From Acidilobaceae archaeon (GTDB lineage Archaea > Thermoproteota > Thermoprotei_A > Sulfolobales > Acidilobaceae), in the NCBI GenBank assembly GCA_025058835.1, contig JANXEI010000001.1:438561-502560 (forward strand): a stretch of DNA of 64,000 bases, read 5' to 3'. The stretch's first letter is position 1. Each line of letters starts with the position of its first letter. The translations under genes and the position numbers were made by a program. Below, piece after piece: positions 1,490 to 5,641 of the stretch. Below the pieces are notes generated by a model that did not search any database, was not told where the DNA came from, and was given only the letters and a program-made list of their open reading frames with translations.

Positions 1490-1924
1490 ATGAGTCAGTC
1501 TAGGGACATCTCGAGGTTCTCGAGAAGCCTCGAAGAGTGGATTGCGATGCAAAAGGTCATGCTGGAGAACTTCAAGAACATCGACGCGAGGGTGAGGAAC
1601 TCGGACAGGCTTGACATAATAATCCACACCCGCCTCGTCTTCAATCACATGATGAGGACTCTGAAGGCCTTTGACGACTGGCTGCAGGACCCATTCATCT
1701 CCAGCAACATCCCAAGGGAGCTACTACTCGAAGTTTGGTCTACCTCGCTGGAGCTTGCGGAGGAGCTCCTAAAGCTGGACGTAAAGCACACCTCTGAGGT
1801 AAGGAACATAATAGAGAAGGCGGCTAGGGAGGGTCAGCTCAGCCCTATGCTAGCTCAGCTGAAGGACCTCGGATCCCAGAGAGGGGAGGAGAAGGAGAGA
1901 AGAGGGCCAGCAATCTCCATCTAG
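1490..1924 (+). CDS. DUF2153-like crenarchaeal protein
   Basis: Protein of unknown function, all-helical in appearance. Features such as the run RLDIIIHTRLVF, a conserved-looking KAFDDWLQDP segment and a charged C-terminal tail resemble the crenarchaeal family DUF2153; this is from memory and needs a profile search. The frame is open from a GTG at 1442, but the ATG at 1490 follows a GGTGAG SD sequence, so I take 1490. The stop overlaps the stop of the convergent gene by four bases. No catalytic motif is visible. Confidence 0.6.
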   Translation: MSQSRDISRFSRSLEEWIAMQKVMLENFKNIDARVRNSDRLDIIIHTRLVFNHMMRTLKAFDDWLQDPFISSNIPRELLLEVWSTSLELAEELLKLDVKHTSEVRNIIEKAAREGQLSPMLAQLKDLGSQRGEEKERRGPAISI

Positions 1925-2409
1925 TCCTGCTCTCTCTCCATTGCTTTCAGCAAGTGGTAGGCAGCCTCCGCGGCATACTTTAGCGCTGCCCTCGCCTTGA
2001 GTGTTTCTACGGTGGTGTACAGCTGGTCATAGCGTATTTCGACCACGCTTCCGTTCACCTCGTTGTACTTCAGCTTTGCCAGCTCCTCCTCCCCCGCTCG
2101 GGCTTGAAGTGCCCTCAGCTCCTGTTCTATTGTGCCAAGGTACTCGCGTATCTCCTGGGGCACCTTCATCGGCTCCTCGAAGACCACGCGTACATAGTCC
2201 TCGCCGGTCATGACGCGTGCTATCCTCCTACGCCCCACTTTGACCTCCTCGACCCTCTCGCCTAGTGCTGGTGAAAGCTCCCTCTGCTCAAGAAGGGCCA
2301 GCAGCGCCCTCATTGCCTCTAGCCGCTGCTCAAGCGATGCTATTTCTTCCCTCAGCCACAGCACCAGCTCCTCTCTCGTCCTCCCTGCCTGCCCCTCCGT
2401 TCTGCTCAT
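1921..2409 (-). CDS. Coiled-coil protein of unknown function
   Basis: A 162-residue protein I do not recognise. Its N-terminal third (about residues 10-45) and residues 85-110 are rich in Glu, Arg and Leu with heptad-like spacing, suggesting two coiled-coil helices around a short middle segment (about residues 55-80) that looks like beta-strand. There is no signal peptide, membrane segment or metal motif. It is divergent from the Ced-like genes and shares with them the upstream region holding two inverted repeats. A role in that system is possible but nothing in the protein itself shows it. Confidence 0.6.
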   Translation of the reverse strand: MSRTEGQAGRTREELVLWLREEIASLEQRLEAMRALLALLEQRELSPALGERVEEVKVGRRRIARVMTGEDYVRVVFEEPMKVPQEIREYLGTIEQELRALQARAGEEELAKLKYNEVNGSVVEIRYDQLYTTVETLKARAALKYAAEAAYHLLKAMEREQD

Positions 2410-2542: not shown

Positions 2543-2797
2543 GTGAGGGGCTTGGATCTGGTACAAGTAATAGACGAGTGGACGACGAGGGTAATGGCCC
2601 TCGCATGGGCACTGTTCCTGCTCACGTGGAGTATAGGTTGGACCCTGAGAGGAGCCCCCATTCCCTTCAACAGGGTGAAGAGAGCAGGGAGCAGCCTGGT
2701 GGAGGACTCGGTGTGGGCAGCGTTCTGGCTTGCCATCGGAGCGACAGTCTTCAAGTTCATTGGATATGTGGTGAAGCTCATAGCAGGAGCTGTCTAG
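2543..2797 (+). CDS. cedA1: CedA1-like pilin subunit of the crenarchaeal DNA import system
   Basis: Membrane protein of 84 residues made of two hydrophobic helices (about 14-36 and 54-82) joined by a short basic loop (RGAPIPFNRVKRAG). Size, hairpin shape and position directly before a CedA-like and a CedB-like gene match CedA1. In the established model CedA1 is a small VirB2-like protein that assembles into a pilus used for DNA uptake between crenarchaeal cells. The loop and the start of the second helix closely resemble a segment of the next protein. GTG 2543 is the longest start; TTG 2552 has better spacing to the GGTGAG SD sequence. Only 3 bp separate the stop from cedA, so they form one operon. 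The call rests on context and topology, not on a database match. Confidence 0.72.
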   Translation: MRGLDLVQVIDEWTTRVMALAWALFLLTWSIGWTLRGAPIPFNRVKRAGSSLVEDSVWAAFWLAIGATVFKFIGYVVKLIAGAV

Positions 2798-2800
2798 ACT

Positions 2801-4153
2801 ATGGATCCGGCAGAGGTCTACCTCCTTGCGCTCAAGCTGTCCTTGCTCACGTTCTACCTCGGCGTTCTGATCTACTCCCTCCCCCTACCCCTTCGCTCCG
2901 TTAAGAGATGGGGACCAGAGCTCATAGTGGACTCCCTTTTTGCTTTCACTATAGTCGTTGCTCACGGCGCCCTCTTTATCGCAAGCGAGCGCCTTGCTGT
3001 TGCGCTGGGAGGATCAAAGGCTCTATTTGCAGACTGGTTCTCTGGAGCGATGCTCATGGCGGTGGGTGTCAAAACCTTAGTCAACGTGGTAGATATGCTC
3101 CCTTCCAAGATCGTCATCTCTCCCGCTCTACAGGCCATAGCTATACCCTTTGACAGGATGGCCACGCTCGCCATCGCCTTCCTCACGACCCTGAGCGCTA
3201 TTGCTGTCCTTGTGTTCGAGTACGGCACTAAACTGCTCCTCCTCGGCGTCGTCCTCTATGCCATCCCCTTCAAAGTGGCTAAGAACGCCGGAGCATGGCT
3301 CATCTCGTTCATTTTAGTGTTCACTGTCGGGCTACAGGTGCTCCCTCTCTTCCTCCTCTCAATTTCCTCGCCGCCAGAAGAGCTGGAGCAGATAGACTAC
3401 AGGACCGTTACCGTGAGGGCTGTCTCTGCGCACGGTCACCCAGCCGCAGGGGGCATCCTAAGGTTCGAGAAGAAGGACTTGTTCGTGTCGCACGAGCTTG
3501 ACAAAGAGGGCTACGCTTCATCGCCCTATCTTGCCGAGAGAACTATAGCGCTGCCAGCAGAGACGCTCATGCCCTCTCTTGCGTTTGGCGGCTACATCTT
3601 TCCCCTCCATCCCTCGCCATTTGACGTGAGGTCGAGGGCTGGCGACCTGGTAGTCTTCGAGGCACCTCACGTGATCCTCTTCAAGGAACCATCCACGTTG
3701 ATATTTGTGAGCACCTTGACTAATCACTCTCTTGAGGTTAGGGAGAACGCCTACGTTGCAAGGGCATGGCTAGAAAGGGGGGACAGGATAGAGGTCCGAG
3801 TACCTGAGGGGTGTTCTCATGAGGTAAGGGGGAACGGAACGTTGGTCGTTGGAGAGAGTAGGTGGAGAGGAGTGGACTTAAAGGTATATTCTCTCAGGGC
3901 AGAGAGGGAAGGATGGTATGAGGTAAGGCTGGCCGTCTCGCCTTGCCAACTCTCCCTGGAGCCCGTCGAGACTCATGACTACATGAGGGAGCTGCTCAAG
4001 AAGTTACACTATATAGATTGGAACCTCATGAGGGGGTTTATACTGTACTACCTCACCGTCCCTGCCATGTACGTCTTCATGCTATTTCTCATCACGACAG
4101 GAGCGGCTTACCTCCTAGGCGGGAGGGACAAGATACCCATAAAGGTGGCGTGA
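2801..4153 (+). CDS. cedA: CedA-like polytopic membrane channel protein with large ectodomain
   Basis: A 450-residue membrane protein: about six hydrophobic segments in residues 5-188, a mainly beta-like soluble domain at about 190-410, then one more membrane helix (about 416-438) and a short basic tail. CedA is the VirB6-like membrane component of the Ced DNA importer, and the flanking cedA1- and cedB-like genes support that role. Residues 21-49 share the pattern P-x-P-x(3)-V-K-R-x-G with the preceding small pilin, and residues 149-174 look like a second, weaker copy. The soluble domain has two cysteines (338 and 382) and sequons such as NHS and NGT, fitting an outward-facing, possibly disulfide-bonded and glycosylated domain. 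It is directly followed by cedB without a gap. Confidence 0.7.
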   Translation: MDPAEVYLLALKLSLLTFYLGVLIYSLPLPLRSVKRWGPELIVDSLFAFTIVVAHGALFIASERLAVALGGSKALFADWFSGAMLMAVGVKTLVNVVDMLPSKIVISPALQAIAIPFDRMATLAIAFLTTLSAIAVLVFEYGTKLLLLGVVLYAIPFKVAKNAGAWLISFILVFTVGLQVLPLFLLSISSPPEELEQIDYRTVTVRAVSAHGHPAAGGILRFEKKDLFVSHELDKEGYASSPYLAERTIALPAETLMPSLAFGGYIFPLHPSPFDVRSRAGDLVVFEAPHVILFKEPSTLIFVSTLTNHSLEVRENAYVARAWLERGDRIEVRVPEGCSHEVRGNGTLVVGESRWRGVDLKVYSLRAEREGWYEVRLAVSPCQLSLEPVETHDYMRELLKKLHYIDWNLMRGFILYYLTVPAMYVFMLFLITTGAAYLLGGRDKIPIKVA

Positions 4154-5641
4154 TTGAACCCGATAGACCTCCTTGTGGCAGCGCTTGCCATCGTTTCGCT
4201 CTTCCTCGTGTTGAGAAACATGATCGTCTCGGGGGAGCTGAGAATGCCGCTTGGCGTGAGGGGGTCGAGGGAGATGAAAATAAAGATCGGCGGTACTTCT
4301 ATGAAGGGCTATGTCCTCCTAGCAGAGCGGCTACCCGCTGGGGACGAGAGGGTCTCGGAAAGGCTGGTCGAGCTGGCAAAGTCCATGAGAGCCAGCGCTA
4401 CTTTTGTTTCTTCCATGATCAAGGTAGAGGCCGGAAGGCTGTTGAAGTATCTTGACGAGGAAATCAAGAAGGCTGAGCTAGCATATACTGCAACTAAGCA
4501 CGTGAAATATGCAGAGAGGTTGAGGGCGTTGCAGGAATTGTACAAGAGGGTCGTGAGGGATCACAAGGCGTACGTAGGCTCCCTAGCTGTAGTCCTGTGG
4601 GTTCCAGAAGGCCCAGAGGAACAAAGGGTAGTGGAAGCATATAGAACCCTCGCAGAGGCAGAGCTAGGCGTGAGCCTGAGGCCTGTTGAAGGGGACGGCA
4701 GCGTTTCCTCTCTGCTCGCCCACCTGCCGCCTCTAGAGACATCCCTCAACGTGAAACCCATCGTCATTTCGGAGAATCACATAGTTGACAAGAGAGGGGT
4801 AGTTGTAGGGAAGAGAGTGGATGGCGAGGACGTAGTGGTCTTGGACTGGCCTAGGGACTTCGAGGCTCACATGGGAGTCTTTGGCCCCACGGGTAGGGGG
4901 AAAACGGTGCTCCTTGCAGGACTCTCGCTACAGCTGGGCATTCTGAGCGAGTCAAGGTTAGACCCTTACATGGTGATGATAGTGGATCCTAAGGGCGATC
5001 TGAAGTCCTTGCTCTCAAAGGCCGGCGCGAGGGTCGTTAGGGTAGAGGAGTGCGTCCCAGTACCGCGACTCGACGGCATTGCAGAGGAGCTCCTTAGGTC
5101 GAGTAGGGAGACGGGGTGGGGGAGGAGCAGCATTAGGGCCTGCGAAGGCTCTGCGGTGGAGAGGGGCTTCGTGATCTACGACCTAACCGATTTACCGAAC
5201 GAGGACAGGAACGTAGCGGCTAGCATGCTGCTCTCGAGCCTCGTGGTGGAGGCTTCTGAGAGACAGCTCCCGGGGAGAGTTGTTGTGGTTCTAGACGAAG
5301 CCTGGAGGATAGCTCAGGGCTCTGCCCAGCACTTCACCATGGTCCTTAGGGAAGGGAGGAGCAAGGGAGTTCATGTGATCTATGCCACTCAGTCCCCATC
5401 TGATGTTCCGCAGGCCGTCCTCGACAACACCCGCGTTATGGTAGCTTTTGGTGGCTTTACGAGGAACTATGTGGAGCTCGCCAGAAGGCTGGGTTTGGAG
5501 AGCAGTGACCAGCTGCTTAGGATGCCCGTAGGCGAGGCCCTGCTGAAAATAGGGGACAACCCTCCGCTCCCAGTTAGCGTTTACAATTACAAGGCGATAC
5601 TCAGCGAAGGGGAGAGGGAGGAAGTAGTTAAAACGGCTTGA
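4154..5641 (+). CDS. cedB: CedB-like HerA/VirB4-type ATPase of DNA import
   Basis: Membrane-anchored P-loop ATPase of 495 residues. One hydrophobic helix lies at residues 4-22, then a soluble alpha/beta region, then the motor domain with Walker A GPTGRGKT (244-251), the VDPKGD segment typical of HerA/VirB4 proteins (about 277-282), the Walker B-like LDEAWR (380-385) and the YATQS sensor segment (410-414). CedB is the ATPase that powers DNA uptake in the Ced system and is homologous to VirB4 of conjugation machines. TTG 4154 follows the cedA stop directly, so translation is coupled. A chromosomal HerA of the NurA repair pair is the alternative, but the N-terminal anchor, the absence of nurA and the two membrane neighbours argue against it. 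Confidence 0.82.
   Translation: MNPIDLLVAALAIVSLFLVLRNMIVSGELRMPLGVRGSREMKIKIGGTSMKGYVLLAERLPAGDERVSERLVELAKSMRASATFVSSMIKVEAGRLLKYLDEEIKKAELAYTATKHVKYAERLRALQELYKRVVRDHKAYVGSLAVVLWVPEGPEEQRVVEAYRTLAEAELGVSLRPVEGDGSVSSLLAHLPPLETSLNVKPIVISENHIVDKRGVVVGKRVDGEDVVVLDWPRDFEAHMGVFGPTGRGKTVLLAGLSLQLGILSESRLDPYMVMIVDPKGDLKSLLSKAGARVVRVEECVPVPRLDGIAEELLRSSRETGWGRSSIRACEGSAVERGFVIYDLTDLPNEDRNVAASMLLSSLVVEASERQLPGRVVVVLDEAWRIAQGSAQHFTMVLREGRSKGVHVIYATQSPSDVPQAVLDNTRVMVAFGGFTRNYVELARRLGLESSDQLLRMPVGEALLKIGDNPPLPVSVYNYKAILSEGEREEVVKTA

Follow-up and report, generated by a model that had tools for sequence, protein, structure and literature searches.

The closest described counterparts of the locus reported here are the Ced systems of Aeropyrum pernix and of Sulfolobaceae such as S. 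acidocaldarius and Sa. islandicus. Ced has been described as a domesticated system, and its pili, known from the A. pernix conjugative (CedA1) pilus of PDB entry 8DFU, enclose a lumen that is too narrow to admit dsDNA (PMC9905601). In Saccharolobus, CedA, CedB and CedD are all needed for import (PMC11868833). Ups pili and CedA2 have also been described in Sulfolobaceae, the latter reportedly being neither conserved among Ced systems nor present in A. pernix (PMC9905601, PMC11868833). The Ted system of Thermoproteales (TedC, TedA and TedB) has, by description, the same architecture, yet pairwise comparison reveals no recognisable similarity between Ted and Ced sequences; TedA can be related to CedA only through profiles, and TedC has a cleaved signal peptide (PMC9905601). 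The conjugative T4SSs of bacteria provide the corresponding set of VirB2, VirB6 and VirB4.

The window analysed here, a stretch of 64,000 nucleotides from an uncultured Acidilobaceae archaeon (the Aeropyrum family), contains three intact ORFs on the same strand, separated by gaps of 3 and 0 bp. We consider it very likely, at a probability of roughly 0.94, that they form the conserved Ced core of this organism, comprising a pilus, a pore and an anchored motor for DNA import in repair. The first gene, cedA1 (2543-2797, +; GTG start), encodes a VirB2-like two-helix pilin of 84 aa. It is followed by cedA (2801-4153, +; ATG start), which encodes a VirB6-like channel protein of 450 aa with seven predicted membrane segments and a beta-rich domain predicted to be external, and by cedB (4154-5641, +; TTG start), which encodes a membrane-anchored ATPase of the VirB4/HerA superfamily (495 aa). 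The sequence-only reading had proposed just such a compact operon, encoding an 84-residue two-helix protein, a polytopic membrane protein and an anchored ATPase. The same ORFs, strand and gaps were recovered, and hydropathy and AlphaFold2 (AF2) models bear out the protein descriptions. The ORFs are not chance features, since dozens of genomes carry full-length homologues of them in this order. In a close relative, the Acidilobaceae MAG SKW39, which is the nearest named one, CedA1 is 92-93% identical and the three genes are arranged likewise, spaced by 1 and 0 bp.

Upstream of the operon, a 162-aa coiled-coil-like protein (window 1921-2409, -), with no significant Pfam match, is encoded divergently from cedA1, with which it shares a 133-bp upstream region. 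Those 133 bp contain no obvious TATA box and no copy of ANTTTC, which we take to be the damage-response motif.

CedA1 scores 120 bits against NCBIfam NF041797, over the equivalog-level cut-off of 100, and matches PDB 8dfu with an E-value of 6.9e-29 across residues 4-75 (72 residues). It has two hydrophobic helices, and an alignment of 36 sequences contains the invariant positions W22, F25, W29, G32, W33, G37, P39, P41, G49, E54 and D55. It is a direct CedA1 orthologue, with its nearest named relatives in Acidilobaceae, rather than a pilin of the TedC type. The N-terminal helical hairpin of CedA (residues 1-70; 2801-3010, +) is homologous to this pilin: hhalign of CedA1 against CedA residues 1-75 returned 98.2% (E 3.9e-14), compared with 5.2% at most for column-shuffled controls, and the CedA profile itself matches 8dfu at 2.4e-11. 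This homology repeats a published result and is not new (PMC9905601). Further along CedA, residues 140-195 (window 3218-3385) include the motif YAIPFKVAKNAGAWLI, which is similar to the motif PIPFNRVKRAGSSLV of the pilin hairpin. When this segment was compared as a candidate second pilin-like hairpin, hhalign returned 28.6% with the N-terminal hairpin and 3.3% with CedA1; homology was not established, and a second copy is thus not supported.

CedA as a whole is a homologous, polytopic channel protein, but it scores below the equivalog cut-off of its curated family. It matches NCBIfam NF041796 at 1e-34 and 120 bits (cut-off 330), and it aligns only over residues 2-189 because that model describes a short form of 259 aa. 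An AF2 model built from 64 sequences (pLDDT 94) has helices as far as residue 188, followed by all-beta structure over 200-379 and then a final helix at 394-438, so that an ectodomain of about 180 residues (residues about 200-379; 3398-3937, +) lies between the last two membrane helices. Loop charges obey the positive-inside rule provided that the all-beta part lies outside, and from these sequence features the domain is probably external. Among members of the genus, identity is 28-60% in the ectodomain and 49-77% in the membrane part, so the ectodomain diverges faster. Its first part resembles CarboxypepD_reg, a carboxypeptidase regulatory-like beta-sandwich, in 6 of the 64 homologues. Pfam returned no match for the window CedA and no VirB6 match among its homologues. 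Neither a VirB6 fold nor a relative of the ectodomain was confirmed, because Foldseek with the whole CedA model gave no match at E <= 0.001. Single-sequence CedA scans of the viral_contigs and genome_contigs sets yielded nothing useful. The ectodomain may cap the pore or the pilus base, or it may contact the S-layer or a partner cell.

CedB has conserved Walker A (GPTGRGKT) and Walker B (VVVLDEAW) motifs. Its N-terminal transmembrane helix (residues 3-26; 4154-4231, +) is an AF2 helix at H3-26 and coincides with a hydropathy peak at residues 7-25; the AF2 model (pLDDT 84) consists of this single helix and a P-loop ATPase. The protein matches NF041017 at 3.6e-16 and 59 bits, under the equivalog cut-off of 700, which most Sulfolobaceae CedB proteins in our ATPase tree exceed. 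All 64 CedA and all 43 CedB homologues that we collected match their respective Ced models, so narrowness of the models is the most likely cause of the missed cut-offs. In fold, CedB comes closest to bacterial VirB4, represented by R388 TrwK (query TM 0.53-0.59, rmsd about 7-8 Å), compared with a query TM of 0.43-0.44 and an rmsd of 15 for Sulfolobus HerA.

Might the ATPase be a HerA repair helicase that happens to stand beside two membrane proteins of an unrelated transporter? Weak Pfam matches to HerA_C and DUF87 and the occurrence of HerA structures among the top fold matches would suit such an arrangement, yet we find it scarcely credible. The same genome encodes a NurA (L045:5305-6492; Pfam NurA, 2.2e-10) that overlaps a HerA gene (L045:6489-8570), as well as a second HerA (L044:9955-11532), whereas the window ATPase has no adjacent nurA and sits beside CedA1 and CedA, a linkage kept across families. 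In a tree of 67 ATPase domains it groups with operon-linked CedB and Sulfolobaceae CedB, and CedD and both HerA genes fall across a branch with an SH-aLRT of 92, a CedB-side value that is not starred. In this tree the branch leading to the NurA-linked HerA is very long, which leaves the exact placement of that protein unsure. The tree and the separate NurA-linked HerA lead us to reject the helicase explanation. The sequence-only reading had named grouping with NurA-linked HerA, together with membrane proteins of an unrelated family, as the outcome that would overturn its Ced assignment. That outcome did not occur, and the assignment is upheld by the CedA1 score and 8dfu match, by the clear homology of CedA and CedB, and by the position of the ATPase on the CedB side of the tree. 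We find it just as implausible that the operon is the conjugative part of an integrated mobile element, even though T4SS parts usually reside on such elements. The operon is flanked by housekeeping genes (phosphomannomutase, Trm112, DUF2153, PEP mutase-like, RNA methyltransferase, and ribosomal L3 and L4), on which grounds we reject this origin, and it is conserved throughout the family and order, as befits a system called domesticated (PMC9905601).

Somewhat more weight is due to the alternative that the machine, being T4SS-like, exports DNA or protein or is bidirectional, although we regard this as unlikely. Its parts are homologous to conjugation exporters, and Saccharolobus CedA1 and CedE also affect export; deletions of cedA, cedB and cedD, however, leave export unchanged in that organism (PMC11868833). 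Unlike bacterial conjugative T4SSs, the locus is chromosomal, its CedA gives no VirB6 Pfam match, and by inspection no relaxase or VirD4-like coupling protein gene adjoins the operon. The genome also carries a CedD homologue together with CedB (C22:121109-122800 / L043:9110-10804), which scores 229 bits against NF053655 and groups with CedD-type proteins of Sulfolobaceae in the ATPase tree (97). Such a pairing of CedD with CedB is expected of Ced systems in genomes that lack VirB4. For the Ced import system that we favour, the published relatives suggest how the parts would work together. CedA1 subunits, with lipid, would assemble into a conjugative-type pilus, borne by CedA as the membrane pore through its pilin-homologous N-terminal hairpin. 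CedB and the CedD encoded elsewhere in the genome would then drive ssDNA in from a partner cell, and this ssDNA would feed recombinational repair. We infer pilus formation, the direction of import, the ssDNA substrate and its use in repair from those relatives.

The arrangement cedA1-cedA-cedB is shared by 23 other members of the family and also occurs in several more families. Because one of the Acidilobaceae genomes that share it is apparently that of A. pernix, the locus belongs to the published system. That genome has a long CedA of 452 aa, and its CedA1 and the 8dfu chain agree wherever they align. Compared with A. pernix Ced, the operon differs by ordinary sequence divergence only, and no structural difference was found. 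In Sulfolobaceae, CedA1, the membrane domain of CedA and CedB are homologous to those of the window and CedD is present, whereas CedA is about 260 aa long and lacks the ectodomain. In the sole short-CedA locus that was examined with long flanks, no cedB was found adjoining cedA.

CedA was detected in 77 of the 98 relatives and, in a class-wide search, in 103 of 117 genomes. The distribution of its two forms is sharply divided. All 76 CedA-bearing genomes outside a single family (f11) have the long form, in open frames of at least about 450 aa, and these span ten families of the order and three outside it. In all 27 genomes of f11, CedA is short and matches only the first ~190-223 model positions. 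We take f11 to be Sulfolobaceae, since the two short-CedA loci of named origin are assigned to Sulfolobaceae/Sulfolobales and since most f11 genomes, like S. acidocaldarius, top the CedB cut-off. Given this split, it is the short textbook CedA that is the exception. The sequence-only reading was right that CedA here is long and carries an ectodomain, as the AF2 model indicates, but its contrast with a classical short form holds against Sulfolobaceae only; the long form is found in A. pernix-type genomes and in every other family searched. In an unrooted tree of the membrane domain, two short CedA sequences group as a single branch within the long forms, with modest support (91 for the pair and 80 for its placement). 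The long CedA is probably the ancestral form, and the short one probably reflects a loss in Sulfolobaceae, which is the simplest history on this unrooted tree.

Departures from the usual arrangement were also observed among the relatives. In several families (f2, f3, f5 and Zestosphaera-like loci; L073, L074, L124, L131 and L135), cedA1 and cedA are linked and no adjoining cedB was detected; where the CedB profile was run on genomes of f2, f3 and f5, it picked out only weaker ATPase candidates, located elsewhere. CedD-like or HerA-like ATPases are encoded close to the ced operon, on the strand opposite to it, at L097:794-2386(-), L077:8071-10029(+) and L136:2015-3973(-). The one at L097, from Acidilobaceae, is a clear CedD, at 281 bits to the CedD of the window genome, and those of Pyrodictiaceae are weaker. 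No CedA was detectable in eight near-complete (>=95%) crenarchaeal genomes (G054, G055, G058, G064, G074, G084, G086 and G151). These eight cluster in a few genera (g21, g22, g25 and g29), which suggests loss or replacement of the whole system.

The locus adds one more genome to the published Ced system, of which it is an ordinary member. Across the genomes searched, the long CedA is the rule and not an oddity, and the channel protein normally bears a large, probably external domain that is absent from Sulfolobus models. Studies of structure or recognition that use Sulfolobus CedA, which lacks this domain, would therefore miss it. Likewise, the curated CedA and CedB models, whose cut-offs are 330 and 700 bits, are fitted to Sulfolobaceae, so that orthologues such as these fall below threshold. 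We speculate, with considerable doubt, that the ectodomain is an ancestral module for partner recognition or for the pilus base, which was lost in Sulfolobaceae when Ups pili took over species-specific contact. This idea draws on a single evolutionary transition, with the short CedA confined to Sulfolobaceae, the group in which Ups has been described, and on the faster divergence of the ectodomain relative to the membrane part within the genus. If it is true, the usual model organism would display a reduced Ced machine.
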